From: Parelaphostrongylus tenuis
Taxonomy: Eukaryota; Nematoda; Chromadorea; Rhabditida; Metastrongylidae
Assembly (NCBI GenBank): GCA_019055375.1
Contig: JAHQIW010004318.1
Span: 30,058 to 94,057 of the forward strand
DNA length: 64,000 nucleotides
Reading direction: 5' to 3'
The first letter of the stretch is position 1; each line of letters opens with the position of its first letter. Shown here piece after piece: positions 186 to 59,546 of this stretch. The position numbers and the translations under genes are program-made. The notes beneath the pieces are model-generated. The model was not told the DNA's origin. It saw only the letters and a list, made by a program, of their open reading frames with translations, and made no database searches.

Positions 186-296
186 CAAAGGATATGTCCT
201 TTCATTCTTATTTGAGCCAACTTGTCATGCGGTCTGGTAAGGGCTCTTGTTACAGCCCGATACACGTGTTTCGTCCTCACAGACTCGTCAGCGATA
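186..296 (-). mobile_element. Solo arm of HH2 foldback element inserted in repeat K
   Basis: This aligns with one arm of the complete HH2 foldback at 10,931-11,355. Shared blocks are TTTGAGCCAACTTGTCATG at 211-229, AAGGGCTCTTGT, and the whole hammerhead segment read on the minus strand. The second K copy at 31,460-31,500 lacks this segment, so it is an insertion of about 110 bp. Only one arm is present. It stops immediately 5' of the catalytic core, so the 5' strand of helix I is lost. Confidence 0.75.
256..291 (-). ncRNA. Hammerhead ribozyme core, HH2 type, helix I incomplete
   Basis: Read on the minus strand, the core CTGACGA (285-291) is followed by helix II GTCU/GGAC closed by a GUGA tetraloop, then GAA, then the self-complementary ACACGTGT as helix III, cleavage-site A and TCGGG. 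This matches the complete copy at 11,250-11,290 except that the tetraloop is GUGA rather than GUAA, and both fit GNRA. The CCCGA strand that should close helix I is missing because the element is truncated there. All conserved core bases fit the hammerhead consensus CUGANGA...GAA. Without helix I this copy should not cleave in cis. Confidence 0.75.
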
Positions 297-870
297 TATG
301 ATTGATATAAAGAAGATATGATTGATCGTTTATACCGAGTTAAACGAAAGTCGGCTTACAATGTAGAACGATTTATTGATATTCTCTGCAGAAAAGCTTA
401 GGTTTTAGGAGAGCTTCATCGTCACAAAAAGCGAAATATCACCGAGGAGACTCTTTGAAGATATGTCGGTGCTTATTAACCCGTTGCAAATACATGTATC
501 GCTTTGAGTACAGACCCTCTCGGCGCAAAATTATTGGAAAGATTTCTATAAATTTATTTCTAGTAAAAGCACCTAGTTGTCAGAGAGATCTCCACTTTTT
601 ATTACTAATTTTGCCATTCGCTCATACACTTTGTGAACTGTGGTAGTGTTTCCTTCCTTTTGTATCCAGATGAGAAGTCTCCCTAGACGTTAGTAACAAA
701 TCCATAGTTTTGGAGAAATGAAGATTTTTGTACGAGGCTTCGTTTATGAAGTAACTTTTCTGTTGCATCATATAAACAAAAGAGGACTGGGTTTGCTTTT
801 TACTAGAAACTTTACGTTGCCTTTTTTGATACCTATACAGTTAAATCCACAGACCTCCTTCTTTGAGGGT
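297..870 (+). repeat. Dispersed repeat K, copy 1, 5' part
   Basis: This aligns over most of its length with 31,480-32,400. Shared blocks include GATATGATTGAT, AAACGAAAGTCGGCTTAC and GATCTCCACTT. The two copies are clearly related but well diverged, with several indels. No protein could be recognised; the open frames here are short and not shared between copies. At about 870 the alignment breaks, where the RTE fragment starts, and it resumes at about 1,766. Confidence 0.65.
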
Positions 871-8420: not shown

Positions 8421-10930
8421 CAGCTCCATCTACTGCTTATGTTTTTGACTCGGAGCGCAGCACACAAGAGCATGCAAAGATTCGGGTAATCCTAGTAATA
8501 GATCTATTTAACTAAGAAGAAAATAATATGCCATTACAGCGGATCAACTTACACACATAATGAGAAAGAGAAAAGAAACAAATCTCACCAGCATCATCTC
8601 GCGTTTGTCGCATCTCAATGTTTAATCCGTGCTTCCTCTGCTGAAGAATCATTTCAGTTACACGAGTGAGTGAATCTGTATTTGGACAAATTCGATTCTG
8701 ATCTGTACATTTGATGAGTCGATATTATTACAATTCTCAAGTTAGTGTTCGTAAGTACATCAACACAAATTTATGGAACCAATATACTAGATCTTCTTAT
8801 AGGTTATGGCATTAGAGCAATAAATTTGAAATGTAATAGGTCTTCTACAAGTTTTGGCCTCAGAGCAGAGCCATAAGTTATTGAAATTGCATGAATATTG
8901 CTTCCTTTATTTGCGCATTTTCCTGCAAACATTTTGGTGTACAACTTGCCTATACTTTCTATGAGATGGAGTTGACGTGGAAAAAAAAATCGCTTGCTAC
9001 TCATGCACTAATGACGCGTTGAGAAAGACGCTAGTGAAGCCGCGCGCAAGACCAGTGAAGCTGCCTGCGGGCGGCTTGAGCGCGAGTGATCTTCTAGATT
9101 GAGTCTCCAGCTTCAAACTGGAATTACTTCCTAACCCTCCTTTCTGCAACCGCATCATCACCGCAAGCTCCATTAATCTGCGCGTCGCTTCACTTGCGCT
9201 TTCCCCTACGCCTGTTTGCGCATGATAACGAATTTGTTCACAAGACAGATCCGTCTCAAAGCAAGTATACGCAACTGTATACCTGTACTCTTCGCAGAAA
9301 ATCGCAATTGAACGATATAAAACGGCCTGACATCAAAGAGAAGTTATTTAAATTGCTGAGCAACTTTAATCAAAGTCGTCGATCAACTCCTTAGCAGTTC
9401 TTTAGTTATATTAGTTATAGTTTAGTTAGTTATATTCTTTAGTTGCTTTGATGGCGGCTTTCAGAATTGGCAAGCAAAGTTCTGAAAAAATAACGGAAAT
9501 CGCGTTCGCTTAAATCGAGCTGTGCCTGCTAATCTTAAAACATCACGAAAGGGTGCAATTTTCGTCGACTGTTTTTTCTCAATTCGACGAATTTTTCAAA
9601 TCTCTTGTAGCATAATTGTAGAGAAGACCTTGTTTCATCGTCTCTTAGGTACAATCCTTCATTTTCGTCCCATATTGCCGCGAAAACTGTAAGAAAACCG
9701 CTACGCGATCGAAGCAGCCTGCTTTGGGCGCGATATGTGTTTTTCTTTTCTCTCCACACCGCTTTATGTAAGGCTTTTCATTAAACAATTCCATCGTCAA
9801 AACTGTCGAGGTTGAGCCATCGAACGACAACTTGAAGTGTAACGAAAAGCCGTCCACACACCGCGTCCGAGGAGCATAACAGACTGATTGTGAAACACAA
9901 TATTATTCTCACTGGTCAGCGCAAGTACAGAGGCTTTCAAAACTGAGCGCATTAGTAGAATTGCCGAGATTCAGGCCTCAGAATGATTAGTAAAATTTTC
10001 AGAAAAAAAAGTTTTGTTCAGCGAGGAATGCTCTAGAAGATCGCGTATCCAAATGCATACATGCTGTCCCGAAAAGGTTGAATTGACGGCAAATGGAACA
10101 GTGCTTTCCTAGCTATCTGCAGTATGCTAAGATGTAAAGATCTAGTACTTCCTTACTTCATTGTTCTTCTTACCTTCATAATTTCCCATACTACCTCTTT
10201 ATCTCGAAAAATTTTTTATGAGGCCCGTCTTCACATCTACTTGCTGATCCAAACACTTCTTGCGTTTGATTCATTTTTTCATCCATAATCTACGTCCCTA
10301 TTCAAACTTTCAAAACAAAGGTTCAACTGCTGTAAAGGAGATATTGCCCTCATTATGAGTGACAATGAGTGCTGATTATGTCACTGCCCTTAAAGTCCTA
10401 TAATATTTGGGATCATACAATTGGATTGCAGAGAGTAAGCCGACTCTGAACAATTTTGATGACGTTCTTCACGCCCCGGAGGAGGGCTGAGTAAGCCCAG
10501 ATAAGATCGCTGAGCACTATGGCCGTGATCATTAGCATCACAATCTCTGCTACAGGAGCAGCTTAATGGAACAACAGATTATCAAAGTCTCTTTTCTATT
10601 GATTATTGCAGATTTTTATGGATTAATCTAAAATTTCATTTGACAAACCCTCTCTTAGATTATCAGAAAGGATAACAACGAGTCAAAAAATTCTATTGAT
10701 AACAACATTGGACCACCTGACATCAGTTCGGCTTCCAAAGCATATGCTCAAAGTCACACTAAAGCTTTTTTTTTTTGAAATCTCACCTACATATTTAGTG
10801 CCTACATTCGACCATAAAGCCAAGAATTCCAAAGACAGAATTTCTATTAACCTCGGTATTGGTGAAATGTTACATTGTACGCTTATTATACCTTTACTTC
10901 GAGTGCTTTGTTGAAACCACGCTCAAATTT
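8421..10930. other. Unassigned 2.5-kb stretch
   Basis: No gene recognised. A short TTAGTTATA-type low-complexity run lies at about 9,400-9,445. Overlapping minus-strand frames at 9,535-9,857 show no known domain. No partner repeat was noticed in the window. Confidence 0.3.
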
Positions 10931-10994
10931 CAATAGATACTTTCATTATTATTTGAGCCAACTTGTCATGTGATCTCGGTAAGGGCTTTTGTAC

Positions 10995-11038
10995 AGCCCG
11001 ATACACGTGTTTCATCCATACAGACTCGTTAGTCAGGC
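10995..11038 (-). ncRNA. Hammerhead ribozyme, HH2 left arm, mutated core
   Basis: Minus-strand reading: CCTGA, then CTAACGA where an active core would have CTGACGA (G to A at the invariant G), helix II GTCT/GGAT with loop GUAU, GAA, ACACGTGT, A, TCGGG. Helix I still pairs with one G-U wobble. Loss of the invariant G predicts no cleavage. Confidence 0.7.
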
Positions 11039-11249
11039 AGAACCGGTCGTCTTTCAATAAAGCACTTGAAATAAAGGTATAATATGATACAAATACCAGC
11101 CAAAGAGCAATTGAGTGAGCAAATACTCTGTGATAAGTGAAAACTTCGCTTGACACAGAGTGTAAATTGTTCGTCTTTGTTGACTCTCTGTAAGGGAGCA
11201 GAGCTCCCGAGAGACTGACTATAAGAATATCGAAAGATGACGAGATCTG

Positions 11250-11290
11250 CCCGACTGACGAGTCTGTAAGGACGAAACACGTGTATCGGG
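11250..11290 (+). ncRNA. Hammerhead ribozyme, HH2 right arm, all core bases present
   Basis: CCCGA (11,250-11,254) pairs with TCGGG (11,286-11,290) as helix I. The core is CTGACGA (11,255-11,261). Helix II is GTCT/GGAC (11,262-11,265 with 11,270-11,273) closed by GUAA, a GNRA tetraloop. GAA follows at 11,274-11,276. Helix III is the self-complementary ACACGTGT (11,277-11,284), leaving no loop, so pairing between two molecules is the natural fold. The cleavage-site base is A at 11,285, in a GUA context that satisfies the NUH rule. Every conserved hammerhead position is satisfied. Activity is predicted, not shown. Confidence 0.88.
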
Positions 11291-11355
11291 GTGTACAAGA
11301 GCCCTTACCAGACTACATGACAAGTCGGCTCAAATAATAATGAGAGCATCTATTG

Positions 11356-13039
11356 TTCTTTTGATAAACAGACGCGAGGTCGTTAACGCATAAGGGACGC
11401 CTATAGAAATCGATTCGCGCAGCGTGAATTGCGCAGCTGTACGCGATTTTCGTTGTTTGATTGAAGTTCTTTTCTCTGCCTTGTAATAATTTTTAGCTTC
11501 TCCGTGAGAAGACGTAAGTGCAATAAGACTTTGATCACTGCTATAACCGGAAGAACAGTGAGCACTTCATAAACAACTCATCCAAAATGAATCCAGTCAA
11601 TAGAATCCATAATCCATCCGTAGAACAGAGAGCTGCAAATCCAGAGCTATTCGAAGGACATGGGTAACAATTAGAACCGCTGCCGCTAATTGCCTTAACG
11701 CTTACGAGACCGTGGGTCCACCTTCTCTCCATCAGTATCCACGAGCGTTCACTGTGTTCCCACTCTGATGGTCATAGATGCGGAGGATGTGGGCTCACGG
11801 TCCCGGAAAGGTTAACGACTTACGAATGTGGGTCTCTTTTTCGCGATGTCACTATTTGAATAAGCAAGTAAAGACTAAGAAAATATGTAAGTAAAGTAGT
11901 TTGAAGTAGGAACAAAGATAACTGGAGAGTAGATGAACTTCTACTAGTAATTATGCAGTAATCCTCTGAAAAAAACTCATTGCTTCCCACGACTGGCTTC
12001 AGTAACACAGTGGGTGTCGAACGTGCACACCAGCTGTTGCTGCTGTTCCTTCTCCCAAACGAAATAGAAGAACGTTCCTTGACAAATCTATAATCACCGT
12101 TTGAGGAAACTGCGATCAGTACATCGGTAATTCAATAACCAGAACAGTAGGCGACAGAATGAATGTGGCAATGAGTATTCGTTCCTTTTAGCACATATAG
12201 AATCCAGACGAAAAAAATTCCAGTAATGCTAGGTGGCACTGAAAGTATGGATGTCTAGCAATTCGTGCCTCACTCTTTCCAAAATGCGTGCTAACCACTA
12301 CTCACCAGAGCTGTGTACTTCTTCGCAACACCGACTGCAAATTTGCTTTTGTGTGCGAAAAATGAGCCCCTGAAGAAATACTTTGGAAGAAATATGTCTA
12401 AGACCTTCAATTTTTAGTTTAGCCTGAGATAAGAATACAGTGCGAATATAGTACACAGCGTTTGAGCAAACTGAGAACTGCTTTTATAGAAATCATCCAT
12501 TAATACTGAACGATACCAAAAGAAAGACTATTCTAATAAAAACATAAACAAAGCGAAAACCTTTGAAGAAGACCCATAAGACAAAAGAACATTTCAAAAT
12601 ATAGAAACATCCGCATAATCTACATGCTTACCAGGATAGCCGTGCGATCCAACAAAATATAGTGAAAAAAGGTGTTATTAACACCAAAAATCATAGAAAC
12701 GACACTACTATCATGTAAGCATAAATTAAGCATATCATCTTATAAAACCTCGTCACAAGTTATCAGTGAAGCTACGAAAGACTGCCCATAAACCTAGAAC
12801 CATTAAGCAAACCTCAGTGTAGATTTTTTTACGATAAAAATTAATGTAGATTTCTCAACGATTCATATTAACAAAAAAAAACCATGAGTTAATATAAGTA
12901 TAATACCAGTAGTTTTTTTTACTTATTACAAGACTCTTGAAGATAGCAATAAATACCTTCGATAAGAACACTGGAAAAGTATTATCAGAAAGCTTATAGC
13001 CTCTGTAATATTATTAATTGTAATACTCACAGTTTGAAA
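11356..13039. other. Unassigned AT-rich stretch
   Basis: No gene or partner repeat recognised. The part from 12,400 to 13,000 is strongly A-rich. Minus-strand frames of 62-63 codons at 11,541 and 11,820 are not recognisable. Confidence 0.3.
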
Positions 13040-13955: not shown

Positions 13956-14037
13956 ACAGTTTACATTGATATATGAAAATGGAGAAAACTTATCTTGATT
14001 AGCTGACGCGAGGTTGATAAAATAGTTGTAGAAATTC

Positions 14038-14072
14038 GGCTGACGTTTCGGCGACCCGCCTTCTTCAGAGCC
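14038..14072 (-). ncRNA. Hammerhead ribozyme, HH1 left arm
   Basis: This is an exact mirror of the right-arm motif at 14,699-14,733. On the minus strand: GGCT, CTGAAGA, an extra A, helix II GGCG-GGT-CGCC, GAA, self-complementary ACGT, cleavage-site C, AGCC. All core bases fit. Confidence 0.75.
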
Positions 14073-14139
14073 TGGACGTATATAGTATTAGTCTATTTGA
14101 ATGATCGGATGGTCTTATTTATATGCTGCCTAGGTCACG

Positions 14140-14340
14140 TTAGAAGATCAAACGAAGAAAGGGCGCGAGATCTCGCGTGATGGTGACGCACTCGTCCTTC
14201 CGATTCATTTCGGGGTTTTGGGCGTTTATCCAAAATGCCTCAAGAGTTTTGCGCGTGGATGTTTTTGATTCCTGCGCCAGGATTGTGACAGTCACATCAA
14301 AATCCTTATTGTTGTGTTTTTGTGCCCTATGTAAAACCTA
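14140..14340 (-). pseudogene. Penelope-like GIY-YIG endonuclease C-terminus, left arm
   Basis: This is the inverted copy of the right-arm frame at 14,413-14,631; it ends with the same stop (minus strand, 14,140). Residues are the same as far as I compared. It breaks at the arm centre, where one base more than in the right arm lies in the TAAAACC run and the 38-bp duplication begins. A fragment only: no reverse transcriptase and no GIY or YIG motif on either side. Confidence 0.7.
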
Positions 14341-14406
14341 AAGGTTTGGTTTTATCTATTTAGATAGAGTAAAACCTAAAGGTTTGGTTTTATCTATTTA
14401 GATAGG
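14331..14406 (+). repeat. 38-bp tandem duplication at the palindrome centre
   Basis: Two copies start at 14,331 and 14,369, each beginning GTAAAACCTAAAGG and ending TTTAGATAG. The right arm has one equivalent. It probably arose by slippage at the hairpin tip and slightly unbalances the palindrome. Confidence 0.85.
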
Positions 14407-14412
14407 GTATAA

Positions 14413-14631
14413 ATAGATAAAACCAAACCTTTAGGTTTACATAGGGCACAAAAACACAACAATAAGGATTTTGATGTGACTGTCACAATCCTGGCGCAGG
14501 AATCAAAAACATCCACGCGCAAAACTCTTGAGGCATTTTGGATAAACGCCCAAAACCCCGAAATGAATCGGAAGGACGAGTGCGTCACCATCACGCGAGA
14601 TCTCGCGCCCTTTCTTCGTTTGATCTTCTAA
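14413..14631 (+). pseudogene. Penelope-like element, GIY-YIG endonuclease C-terminus
   Basis: The frame is open for about 72 codons to a TAA at 14,629. It contains KPLGLHRAQKHNNKDF, VTILAQESKTSTRKT, LEAFWINAQNPEMNR and ECVTITRDLAPFLRLIF. The L-E-A-F-W-I ... N-P-x-M-N block is typical of the end of Penelope-like GIY-YIG endonucleases, which cut target DNA during retrotransposition; the glutamate is its metal-binding residue. The catalytic GIY and YIG motifs and the reverse transcriptase are absent, and a stop at 14,410 closes the frame upstream at the palindrome centre. The hammerhead follows 67 bp downstream, the usual order at a Penelope 3' end. Confidence 0.8.
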
Positions 14632-14698
14632 CGTGACCTAGGCAGCATATAAATAAGACCATCCGATCATTCAAATAGACTAATACTATATACGTCCA

Positions 14699-14733
14699 GG
14701 CTCTGAAGAAGGCGGGTCGCCGAAACGTCAGCC
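14699..14733 (+). ncRNA. Hammerhead ribozyme, HH1 right arm
   Basis: GGCT (14,699-14,702) pairs with AGCC (14,730-14,733) as helix I. The core is CTGAAGA (14,703-14,709). After one extra A, helix II is GGCG/CGCC with a GGT loop. GAA follows (14,722-14,724), then self-complementary ACGT (14,725-14,728) as a two-pair helix III without a loop, and cleavage-site C at 14,729. This layout matches published small Penelope-associated hammerheads that act as dimers. The extra A beside helix II and the very short helices make single-molecule activity unlikely. Confidence 0.78.
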
Positions 14734-14862
14734 GAATTTCTACAACTATTTTATCAACCTCGCGTCAGCTAATCAAGATAAGTTTTCTCCATTTTCATAT
14801 ATCAATTGATTATGCCGAGGTTTATAGAAAGTCGAACTTTTGAATTGTTACAGTTTACATTG

Positions 14863-23055: not shown

Positions 23056-24055
23056 GAGGTTCTTCTAGAGACGTAAATGTTACAGCCAGAAAAAGCGCAG
23101 TTGTTTTAATCTTACAAATTACCTCATTTTGATATGAAGCGTAGATTTATGAGGTGACACTGCATATCCAACCACTACTTATTGTATTTGTGAGCAATGT
23201 ATTGTATTATGGCGCTGCTTAAATCGTATTATTATTGTGTTATGTGTTACGCTATATGCATTGCTATAAGCTGGAGATTGTTGAGCTGATGGTGATGAAT
23301 ACATTATTCAGTAGCCGCATGTATTACAATGCTACAATAATGATCGCTTTTCTTTCTAAAATTACGTTTATGGAAGGACCTTCATTACCATTAGACACTA
23401 AGAAATAACAAAAAAAATTGCTGTGAAGCGTCGTGAGGAGAGATATAACCAGCAATCTTCTTTCCTATGCTGGGCATCACGAACCACTCGGCACTACGGA
23501 ATACTCGCCACGAGAGGCATCCACGATTGTTGGAGGATATCATACTCAGTGGTTAACTTCTGATTAACCAAAAAAGTCGCTTTTTTCAGTATGACAACGC
23601 AGGATCAATGTCGTCCGTCAGAAAGTCCGCTGATTTTTCAAGGACTTTTGTCTTTCTTTTGAAATCAACAAAGTCAAATCAACTTGCAGCTAATAGATTA
23701 AAATGAAATATGACTAACATCTGTTGGGATCCAAATTTCTTTGCGTTTTTGATAATGAAAAAATAATTTTTTCGTAACTGAAGGGCTCAAGATGTACTGG
23801 ACACAACAGGACTGCAGTGTAAACTTTACGCTAACGCTTCATCATTTTGAGTGATATTCGCATTATTATTTACTATGTGTTAACATGTTCCATTACAAAT
23901 TCAATGCCGCTTAAAAGTGTTTCACCTTTATGTTGTGATTATTTCGGAGCTACTACTCACACATCCATGAAACACCAGAACAAATGAAACTGAACAAAAA
24001 CCACTTGTAAAGAAAACTACCAGTCAGTGAATTTTTCCGGACAAGAAGTTCTCTA
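23056..24055. other. Unassigned stretch
   Basis: No gene or partner repeat recognised; AT-rich. Confidence 0.3.
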
Positions 24056-25164
24056 AAAAGTGGAGTGACTCGAGCGGGTACCAGCAACACTTCCATTTTT
24101 CCCTATCGCGTGCAAGAGTAGCCCAGTGCGTCCTCTCGCTCCAGAAATTCGCTGATCATCATATCTTTCTTCTATAGCTTTCATGAAGAAATCGGACAAA
24201 TGGGTCGGTGGCCTTCCTGATGAGCGCTTAACTGTCGTCCATCGGCGATCGTTGAGGCGCATCACGTGTCCGACCCACCCTTTTTTCGATATCCTGGAGT
24301 GTAGAACGGCGTCTCTGATTTTCGATCGTTGACGTAGGTCGGAACTTCGGATCCTTCCTCTCATTTGCGAGACACGGGATACCCCTAGCATCGACATCTC
24401 GAGTGCGCGTTCAATAATGCCAAGTGATCTTTCATCCTGCTTACGTAGTGACCAAGTTTCTGCTGCATACGTTAAGGCAGGGACAACTGTCGCGTCGAAA
24501 AGGTGGGCACGGAATCGGATGTTCTTCGCCCTCTTCACTACATCTTCGATGCTCTCAAACGTTCCCCAAGCCGCTCGTTTCCTCCTGGTCAACTCTAGAG
24601 CTAGATCGATCATCATGTTGATTTCACGACCTAGATAGATGCAACTGGAGCATTCGGAGATTGTCGTTTCGTTGATCGTGAATGGAGCATTAGAAACTCA
24701 TCCGTTCCTCATGAACATCGTTTTCGTTAGATTAAGTTGAAGACCAACCTTTCCACAGGCCTATCGAAATAAGTCAAGATTCAATCCGCTTGGCCGATGT
24801 TTGGTGTTATGAGGACGATGTCGTCAGCAAAGCGAAGACGGTTTAATTGTCAACCGTCAATTTCCACTCCCATATCATCCCATTCTAATGCTCGCATGAC
24901 GTTTTGTAGGATGGCAGTGATTAGTTTTGGCGATATTGTACCGCCTTGTCGAACCCCTCTTCTTACGTCAATGGTGATACTGTTGTAGAATGCAGATATT
25001 TTGGTCGTAAAATCTTTATAAAGTTCACGAAGGATCATTACATACCAAGTAGGGACGACCTGGTTATCCAAAACCTCCATAACCGCTTCTCTTTCCACTG
25101 AATTAAAGGCTTTTTTGAGATTGATGAAAGTGAGACAGAGTGATTGCTTTTGCACTAAGGTGTA
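24056..25164 (-). mobile_element. RTE-clade retrotransposon, 5'-truncated reverse transcriptase (pseudogene)
   Basis: Reading from 25,155 downward: LTFINLKKAFNSVEREAVME, LRELYKDFTTKISAFYNS, DVRRGVRQGGTISPKL, EWDDMGVEIDG, a stop, then LRFADDIVLITPNIGQ with the catalytic FADD encoded at 24,820-24,831. After a frameshift: LQLNLTKTMFMRNG, SECSSCIYLGREINMM, then the long frame 24,053-24,616 with LALELTRRKRAAWG, ALTYAAETWSLRKQ, LRQRSKIRDAVLHS and GWVGHVMRLNDRRWT. Near the end another frameshift restores THWATLARDREKWK. About 15 residues after RRWT are missing compared with the family as I know it. Stops and shifts make it dead. The 5' truncation at about 25,164 is typical of LINE insertion. Identity with the other RTE pieces here cannot be compared because they cover different or more decayed parts. 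Confidence 0.92.
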
Positions 25165-31258: not shown

Positions 31259-32800
31259 TCAGAATTGACTTACTGAGCTCGCCAAATAAGGTTCTCCGTT
31301 CGACTGATGCTCTATTGAAGGATAAATCTGACTTGAGTGAGAAGGAGGCGAAGTGCCACAACGAGGGCGAACAAGAGTGAACGATCGATTTAAATCATCC
31401 GAACTAGGCAAAATGAGCCAAGACGACAATCTAATGAAAGTTGTTTTTGACACCTCGTACTACATGATTATATAACAAAGAAGATATGATTGATTAGTTA
31501 TTGCTGAAGTAAAACGAAAGTCGGCTTACGATAGACAAGGATTTGTTGATTATCTCATACAGAAAGCTCAAGTTTTAGAAGTAGGTTACCGTCACGAGAG
31601 TGAAGGTTCACTGAAGAGTTTTATGAATATAACGCGCGGTGGTCACACGCTTTTATGAGAATAACAATATATTCGATGCTTTGAGGTTTTGTGGCTACAT
31701 TATCAGGATTAATTAATGGGATATCACAAGAGATGTTTCTCTAAAAAGTGTTTCGGTAAAGAAAAAGTCTATCTGTCGGAGATCATTTTATGTTTCAACG
31801 AAAGAGCAACATTGTTGTGGAAGTGAACATATTTACAGCCGTTATGAAGCACTCGTTTCTTTACATTCATCTATGCTTTTGTAGTCATTCCATAGCCTGA
31901 GAAATACCGTTTCTTGTAATAAGTCTGTTTCGTGAAAAGACTTTCGTAATACACTTACTAACAAGAAGAAAGATACATTTTGCAATCGAACGTCATCATT
32001 CCAACTTCACAGGGCATTTTTTGGCCTTGTGTAAAAAATTCTGATTTCAAGAGGGACTTTGTCACTATAGAGTATGAAGTATTGACCGAGAAATTTTCAT
32101 AAACTTGCTTTTATAGAAAGGGAGCCTAGTGGTCATAGAAATCTCCACTTCTTATCAAGAATCATCTGAATTGTAGTTACATTTTATGATATGTACTGTT
32201 GTTTTCTTTCGATTTGTTCTCAAGAAGTATTTTAAGTAGACTGTTAGTAATCAATCAATATATTGAGGAAAAGAGATCCCTGTACTATGTTTGATTTATA
32301 GAAAACCTTCCCGTTGCGGCGTAATTAATAAAAGGTGGGCTGCCTTTTGCTTTTGGACTCAATGCTCCGTTATTTGAACTTAACGTCGCTTTTTTTTTTG
32401 TTTTCGAGAGAGTTTGCTGTTATGAAAGGACAGATAATCTATTGGAGAAACGCATTTTCGCGTGGGGAACGCCCACATGCTCCAACATTTTCCACCTTTC
32501 AAATTGAAAAGTACATCCATGGTAAAGCCAAACCTCTGGCCTTTCTTGTATATCTCTATGGCCTATATTATAAGTCGTGAACTCGAAAATACATTTTCCA
32601 CAATGTCCAACTTATAGAAGAGACAGATATGAGGGGAATACTGCTATGCAGCTGGAGCAAGCATCTACAGACTTCGCATTGATTAAAGTTAGGAGCATTC
32701 CTCAGAAAAGTGCACTTACACTGTGTCTTATGCTTTTTCAGTAGACTAATAGTAGTCATTCAGTAGCTTGAAAATAGGAATTTCAGTACTAGCTTTCTTT
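31259..32800 (+). repeat. Dispersed repeat K, copy 2
   Basis: This aligns with 1-870 and 1,766-1,985. It starts with an HH4-type arm (31,300-31,470), lacks the HH2 arm that interrupts copy 1, and has 150 bp at 32,405-32,555 in place of the RTE fragment of copy 1. It ends in T-family sequence (AGTAGTCATTCAGTAGCTTG at 32,751-32,770). It is the uninterrupted reference for reading the two insertions in copy 1. No protein recognised. Confidence 0.65.
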
Positions 32801-59373: not shown

Positions 59374-59546
59374 TGCTTGTTATTTCATGACATTCTGACA
59401 GCTGCACAGTTGAAAACCCTTAGTGCAAGAGGCTCCATAGTTTTTGCTTGTTATTTCATGGTATTCTGACAGCTGCACAGTTGAAAAACCTTAGTGCCAG
59501 AGGACCTATAGTTTTTTTTTTGTTAATTTTAGTGCAAGAGGCTCTA
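59374..59546 (+). repeat. 71-bp tandem repeat, 2.4 copies
   Basis: Copies start at 59,375 and 59,446 (GCTTGTTATTTCATG, CATTCTGACAGCTGCACAG / TATTCTGACAGCTGCACAG, TTAGTGC.AGAGG). A third, partial copy (TTAGTGCAAGAGGCTCTATA) starts near 59,527 after a T run. Confidence 0.9.

Follow-up and report, generated by a model that had tools for sequence, protein, structure and literature searches.

A hammerhead retrozyme family in Parelaphostrongylus tenuis with an insertion footprint like that of Penelope-like elements

The hammerhead ribozyme at positions 11250-11290 of the window (the whole stretch of 64,000 nucleotides of P. tenuis DNA that was analyzed) is confirmed as real. The element that carries it is probably a non-autonomous, non-coding non-LTR retrozyme of about 318 nt, in which the type I hammerhead would process the RNA and the enzyme of a Penelope-like element (PLE) would carry out the insertion. 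The footprint of the family shows that it inserts like a PLE, which is not proof of its being one. The interpretation given in an initial annotation of this DNA is supported overall; the link to Penelope now runs through insertion footprints and not through sequence. As far as our limited searches show, the novelty lies in the group of hosts and in footprints that point to PLE-type insertion.

Results

A type I hammerhead in the window

The three helices and the full set of core bases claimed in the initial annotation can each be read in the plus strand. Helix I pairs 11250-11254 with 11286-11290 (CCCGA/TCGGG), the core comprises CTGACGA (11255-11261) and GAA (11274-11276), helix II pairs 11262-11265 with 11270-11273 (GTCT/GGAC) and is closed by the loop GTAA (11266-11269), and helix III (ACAC/GTGT, 11277-11284) has no loop. 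The cleavage site reads GTA, with the cut predicted after A11285. The copy has the CUGANGA ... GAA core and the NUH cleavage site of a type I hammerhead. When the covariance-model search proposed at the outset was run, Rfam Hammerhead_1 (RF00163) matched 11249-11291 with 25.3 bits (E 0.0018 over 1.4 kb), under its gathering score of 34, which is a search cut-off and no structural criterion; nothing in the Rfam search of the window reached a gathering score. A match to MIR396 at 10888-11081 (28.6 bits, gathering score 80) was judged to be a chance match to the inverted repeat.

Our model R1 scored the window copy at 74.8 bits, this copy being itself among the 43 motifs behind the model. The pattern CTGANGA-N12-GAAACACGTGTA with up to three mismatches has four matches in the window (0.24 expected), one of which, at 12370 with three mismatches, is probably due to chance. 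There are three hammerhead copies in the window, one at 11245-11296 (+) and two on the minus strand (Table 1). Consistent with the earlier statement that the element has no coding capacity, none of the ten window ORFs of at least 120 aa overlaps it; it contains no ORF of that length, and no ORF with the reverse transcriptase and GIY-YIG domains of a PLE.

Table 1. Positions of the elements discussed in the text, in window coordinates
Feature	Position	Strand	Basis
Type I hammerhead ribozyme, all core bases	11250..11290	+	sequence, Rfam RF00163, model R1, covariation
Right arm, almost full-length retrozyme unit whose short tail stops 70 nt past the cleavage site (End A)	11052..11355	+	
Tail between the cleavage site and End A; includes the 5' part of a possible tail hairpin	11286..11355	+	
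Left arm, inverted 5'-truncated unit, long tail (End B)	10889..11059	-	
Left-arm hammerhead, core CUAACGA instead of CUGANGA (G to A), 63.3 bits	10991..11042	-	
5'-truncated copy, intact core, helix I unpaired (hammerhead 250-301)	199..301	-	
Foldback with a PLE 3' fragment in head-to-head arms, including the end of the GIY-YIG region; separate insertion	13965..14845	.	

Abundance and covariation of genomic copies

A genome-wide search for the core pattern with paired flanks, also suggested in the initial annotation, was productive. In the 481.5-Mb genome the N12 pattern has 6,549 exact matches (3,307 on the plus and 3,242 on the minus strand), and its reversed control has none; an N11 form without the last A has 196 matches (control 0). 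The hammerhead pattern was not found in the collections of viral contigs and genome contigs that were searched. With RF00163, for which 74 of 119,811 first-look candidates were scored, the genome yielded at least 31 matches, 20 of them above the curators' cut-off, and 14 control genomes yielded none. Five of seven regions at RF00163 matches contain a hammerhead by the core pattern, and all five have a longer helix III starting with ACAG.

Covariation was analyzed in 43 motifs (42 distinct) from the fetched loci and the window, with helix III fixed by the search pattern. Cells of helices I and II are paired in 91.4% of cases, compared with 83.3% after shuffling and 18.7-44.5% in slid controls. 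Double-changed cells in these helices number 46, against a shuffled mean of 15.9 and a maximum below 46 in all 500 shuffles; double changes occur in five of the six pairs of helix I and three of the four pairs of helix II. Two other measures are less striking: the count of 8 pairs showing double changes was reached in 14 of the 500 shuffles, and that of 21 further pair types in 32. Helix II appears as GATC/GATC, GACT/GGTC, GTCT/GGAC, GGCT/GGCC and other variants, and helix I, too, varies on both strands of the stem. Helices I and II covary in genomic copies, and this covariation argues for selection on the RNA. By the initial annotation, genomic copies varying without regard to core or pairing would have spoken against the ribozyme; both are kept while the copies change.

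Complete or almost complete copies collected with the whole unit as query gave 24 alignments. In these, 25 of 1,032 cells differ within the hammerhead, compared with 260 of 6,101 at the remaining sites (p 0.004, calculated over copies that are not independent). Most copies were collected via the hammerhead pattern itself; loci L079-L098 (whole-unit similarity) and the PLE loci L039-L068 and L106-L114 were collected without that pattern or Rfam.

Helix III and folding as a dimer

Helix III with another inner base was found at 168 places, compared with 6,549 for the N12 pattern, the two patterns not being identical. A hand count of 100 listed places among the 168 gave about 59 with G opposite U and 2 compensated to G-C, so helix III is conserved as a sequence and not by covariation. 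Since it has no loop, a monomer could form about 2 bp there. The proposal that the ribozyme folds best between two molecules is partly supported, by the motif itself more than by its context and relatives. For the 41-nt motif the dimer minimum is an exact double hammerhead (-28.9 kcal/mol) and the monomer minimum is a non-hammerhead fold (-10.5 kcal/mol); monomer folding of the window motif gave neither a hammerhead nor unusual stability (z 0.15). With one flanking base added at each end of the window copy, the double hammerhead is no longer the dimer minimum. It is the dimer minimum in 19 of the 43 motifs, and the hammerhead is the monomer minimum in none. The folding energies favour dimers, short of proof.

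Architecture of the unit and its foldbacks

The foldback in which the hammerhead was said to lie is present, with arms pairing as 10978-11059/11228-11309 and 10931-10976/11310-11355. It had been equated with the element, which we correct: the unit is a non-coding sequence of about 318 nt that occurs singly, in tandem and head-to-head. Tandem copies have a period of 318 in L009 and of 316-337 elsewhere. Among the first 100 of the 6,549 places, a hand count of neighbours less than 1 kb apart gave 19 pairs, 12 of them head-to-head, 6 tandem (316-337 bp) and 1 tail-to-tail; for these first 100 listed places the difference between head-to-head and tail-to-tail pairs, 12 versus 1, has p 0.003. The skew is weaker in the fetched loci, which are fewer and overlap with this sample (13 head-to-head, 5 tandem, 3 tail-to-tail).

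In the window foldback the two arms overlap by 8 nt (11052-11059), and the similarity of the left arm to the unit extends to 10884. The left-arm hammerhead is presumably inactive, as general chemistry would lead one to expect for a CUAACGA core. Inspected by eye, the flanks of the copy at 199-301 suggest a duplication of about 27-30 nt when compared with a diverged paralogue at 31289-31595.

A fixed 5' start of full-length copies (window 11056) was considered and rejected, for it reflected only the end of the query and 5' ends vary widely; the idea that reverse transcription stops at the tail hairpin was dropped together with it. Some 5'-truncated copies (in L009, L080 and at window 261 (-)) start within one base of CTGACGA, partly through search bias. 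The sequence at C595:9480-9832 is 98% identical to the window unit, has the same inverted piece and is probably a duplicate or other haplotype of the locus. Elsewhere in the window there is a 71-bp tandem duplication at 59374-59516.

Insertion footprint of the retrozyme family

We compared the outer flanks of 13 distinct head-to-head foldbacks from the fetched loci and the window. Six of the 13 share a flank stretch with a local score of 9-13, and mismatched flank pairs reach 9 or more in 3.8% of cases. The duplication adjoins both foldback ends within 3 nt in L008 (TCGTTCTGGAT), L078 (ATTAGCATTTA) and L037 (TGACCTACA); in L014, L029 and L096 the shared stretch overlaps an element end, which leaves the length of the duplication uncertain. 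Target duplications of more than 4 bp, a feature of non-LTR retrozymes when present, thus occur at 6 of 13 foldbacks. Since the shared flanks surround whole foldbacks, at least some foldbacks are a single insertion. At the window's own foldback the flank comparison found no target duplication (score 5).

The 3' ends, measured from the cleavage site, fall into two groups about 45 nt apart. In subfamily I (n=50), 31 lie at +49 to +80 and 12 at +111 to +119, with +98 and +159 found once each and five run-on tandems; in subfamily II (n=20), 12 lie at +49 to +77 and 7 at +113 to +125, with one run-on. Of 81 copies, 11 whose tails aligned weakly do not enter these counts. A short tail on one arm is combined with a long tail on the other in 9 of 11 classifiable foldbacks, including that of the window; both tails are short in two and both long in none (permutation p 0.053, with length classes defined after the data were seen); excluded from the 13 foldbacks were L034 (run-on) and L014 (intermediate end). 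The family's tail stem (GACCAC/GCTCAAA ... TTTGAGC/GTGGTC) is paired in 88.8% of cells, compared with 25.7-43.1% in slid controls; its covariation does not rise above that of shuffles, and RNAalifold predicted no structure in the tail. Across the family we find the head-to-head copies, target duplication and optional tail on one arm that mark PLE insertions, the window copy being without a duplication.

PLEs of the P. tenuis genome

A PLE search with a PLE core as query gave 3,626 first-look candidates, 150 of which were scored. Many of the 150 scored places have reading frames several hundred aa long, and in some the frame measures 893 aa. Locus L063 carries RVT_1 and GIY-YIG domains; its best match is a 3.5-kb contig (73%), and among named relatives the best come from Necator, Ancylostoma and Haemonchus, which puts the host among the strongylid nematodes. 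Three tandem PLE matches with 893-aa open frames and a period of 2,985 lie at C2880:13583-21706. A small hammerhead was found in 26 of 30 PLE loci, in L063 about 200 nt past the stop codon. Its helix III is AC/GU, and it differs from, and is smaller than, that of the retrozyme. This corrects the initial annotation: the local PLEs carry a hammerhead of their own. No similarity to the unit was found by blastn in the 30 PLE loci, nor was a PLE with the tail motif of the retrozyme family found among the 39 PLE loci scanned.

PLE tails have two 3' ends about 41 nt apart. In subfamily a, 7 rows end at +52 to +69 and 8 at +104 to +130; in subfamily b, 6 end at +99 to +128 and 5 at +165 to +170, a further five of the 31 rows, all of subfamily b, being unusable (poor alignment or cut by the locus end). 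The reference loci L051 (a) and L066 (b) were each aligned to the other reference, and L043 and L044 are near-identical.

PLE neighbours at most 5 kb apart among the 150 scored places comprise, by hand count, 9 head-to-head pairs, 1 tandem and no tail-to-tail pair; a tail-to-tail pair of PLE ends at C834 lies outside this count. Both tails can be read in five head-to-head pairs, each of which combines a short tail with a long one (p 0.12), and for retrozyme foldbacks and PLE pairs jointly the pairing of short with long has p 0.004; this set excludes C1721, where the locus ends within a tail, the tail-to-tail pair at C834, and C1811, which is not a pair. Judged by eye, target duplications are clear in two of the five (GAACGAATA at C4812, TTCAAGTTAATTC at C240) and weak in three. 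A young-looking PLE foldback lies in the window itself, 2.6 kb from the retrozyme. Its arms are 99.7% identical over a 398-bp alignment and carry hammerheads at 14038-14072 (-) and 14699-14733 (+); one tail is short and one long, and a 9-nt repeat, ACAGTTTAC, is seen by eye at 13956-13964 and 14850-14858.

Related hammerhead families and their tails

A second retrozyme family, absent from the window, has a loopless helix III ACACC/GGUGU and 2,934 genome matches (control 0). Its tandem period is 267-278 (for example in L115-L118 and L111:385-), with a run of six units of about 270 nt at C72. Pairs less than 1 kb apart among its first 100 places are, by hand count, 18 tandem, 9 head-to-head and 1 tail-to-tail. 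Aligned to four PLE tails, its tail scored 34, 30, 22 and 20 (shuffled means 10.6-11.5); the best score was reached by none of 2,000 shuffles, and the weakest (20 versus 11.5) has p 0.0115. The tail of the window family is weakly similar to that of the second family (two of three sequences score 20 versus about 11, p 0.0055, and the remaining one 18, p 0.02) and shows no significant similarity to the four PLE tails (p 0.18 or more). For the window family the PLE link is therefore one of architecture and footprint, not of sequence.

In loci L099-L101, L103 and L104 the hammerheads have an extended helix III, self-complementary for the most part (for example ACAGGCGCCTGT), and a helix II near GTCCCAAATAGGAC; we take them to resemble the schistosome ribozyme. 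The stretch GGCTCAAA of the window family's tail is common to three of these five loci.

Discussion

A model for mobilization by PLE enzymes

The non-coding unit falls within 170-400 nt, carries a type I hammerhead and occurs in tandem, as do metazoan non-LTR retrozymes. We propose that tandem copies would be transcribed and that hammerheads, possibly double ones formed via the self-complementary helix III, would cut the multimers to units, which may be circularized. A PLE protein would then bind the tail past the hammerhead, cut the target and start reverse transcription at one or the other of two sites separated by about 45 nt; the two groups of 3' ends are seen in the genomic copies, and the enzyme is the proposed one. 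Extension of both target strands and joining of the two cDNAs head-to-head would give a foldback with its tails outward and a single target duplication around the whole. The geometry is seen in the copies and the duplications in some foldbacks; given initiation by a PLE protein in the tail, we lean towards this order of events. A copy with an intact hammerhead would come from RNA uncut at that site, so that the template would be circular or uncut RNA.

For an Anolis PLE, reverse transcription starts at an internal position of the RNA, within a stem loop that lies downstream of its hammerhead, and the protein cuts and extends both strands, the tail being the sequence between two start sites (PMC11167929). 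In vitro, insertion was unaffected by hammerhead mutations and RNA that had not been processed was the main substrate; the ribozyme cut only with protein, and no reads started or ended at the cleavage site (PMC11167929). By analogy with this element, the ribozyme of the retrozyme may not be needed for insertion.

In its wider form, the proposal is that the footprints identify the mobilizer of metazoan retrozymes as a PLE protein acting with two tail starts and on both target strands, and that foldbacks are two-ended PLE insertions, often of circular or multimeric RNA. We give this an even chance, because the accessible part of PMC3846280 offers another cause of head-to-head arms. On that account a PLE would still move the retrozyme, and the arms would arise by self-priming or template jumps on one cDNA or antisense template. 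Self-priming on an antisense template is the explanation its authors favour for Penelope inserts, and the overlap of the window arms and the variable arm lengths and junctions would fit template jumps. Set against it are the cutting and extension of both strands by the Anolis protein in vitro, the different tail sites at which the arms end in 9 of 11 foldbacks, and a locus of the second family (C77:119684-120747) with tandem runs on both arms, the latter two suggesting two separate starts. We regard this origin of the arms as possible, if unlikely.

Other conceivable origins of the family

Insertion by another reverse transcriptase, such as that of an RTE-type LINE, with the foldbacks as 5' inversions made by twin priming, appears improbable. 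The window has an ORF at 24053-24616 (-) that we take to be an RTE-type retrotransposon remnant, for which a Pfam search gave no match, and LINE twin priming also yields 5' inversions. Twin priming, however, inverts an adjacent part of the same RNA; in the foldbacks described here, hammerhead and tail are present a second time in the inverted arm, whose own 3' end points outward. The two groups of 3' ends, the lack of any poly-A tail noticed in the copies inspected and the similar footprint of the local PLEs also speak against a LINE. We doubt strongly that the family is a decayed satellite-like repeat with an inactive hammerhead, spread by segmental duplication. Degenerate copies do exist, and the C595 copy looks like a duplicate of the locus; against this, copies are spread across numerous contigs, their flanks differ, target duplications accompany some of them, and hammerhead positions change less than the rest of the unit. 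A MITE-like foldback DNA transposon with a hammerhead acquired by chance would account for the long inverted repeats and the target duplications at some of them, but is very improbable given arm lengths and junctions that differ between loci, the absence of the inverted arm in some (L032, L033), the tandem copies, foldback ends that usually differ from each other and covarying helices that indicate selection at the RNA level.

Comparison with known systems

Retrozymes with type I hammerheads are known from many animal phyla, and PLEs have been proposed as their likely movers (accessible parts of PMC7229834 and PMC7761336). A limited search of the open-access literature, some of it available in part, found no report of hammerhead retrozymes in strongylid nematodes; 'inverted' and 'nematod' do not occur in the main text of PMC7229834, nor 'nematod' in the main texts of PMC11167929, PMC6155905 and PMC7761336. 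The P. tenuis element would extend hammerhead retrozymes to a strongylid nematode. With 6,549 retrozyme pattern matches and 150 scored PLE places that have a common footprint, it also makes mobilization by PLEs testable at the bench.

Like the metazoan non-LTR retrozymes described in the available text of PMC7229834, the element has a unit of 170-400 nt, a type I hammerhead, tandem copies and no LTR, and it occurs alongside hammerhead-bearing PLEs; unlike those retrozymes as described there, it forms head-to-head foldbacks and has a two-ended tail, and it is known here from DNA. With the satellite retrozymes of newt and axolotl (PMC7229834 and PMC6155905, in the portions available), whose hammerhead works better as a dimer, it shares type I, a short helix III and, to judge from their 330-350 nt, a similar length; the host phylum differs, and the likeness is one of description. 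The small PLE-associated hammerheads of Lunse 2017 are small like the present one and, by the title given in the reference list of PMC7761336, cleave as dimers.

Penelope inserts, as reported in the accessible part of PMC3846280, consist of adjacent inverted pLTRs, mostly head-to-head, with an optional 31-bp tail on one; duplications of 8, 9 or 10 bp accompany some and none accompanies others, and unrelated sequences lying between pLTRs are mobilized in trans. As in PLEs (PMC11167929 and the same part of PMC3846280), the hammerhead of the P. tenuis element is followed by a tail with two 3' ends, inverted copies stand head-to-head, target duplications are short and the long tail is usually on a single arm. 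Unlike PLEs, the element encodes neither reverse transcriptase nor endonuclease, and its helix III is ACAC/GUGU where that of the local PLEs is AC/GU.
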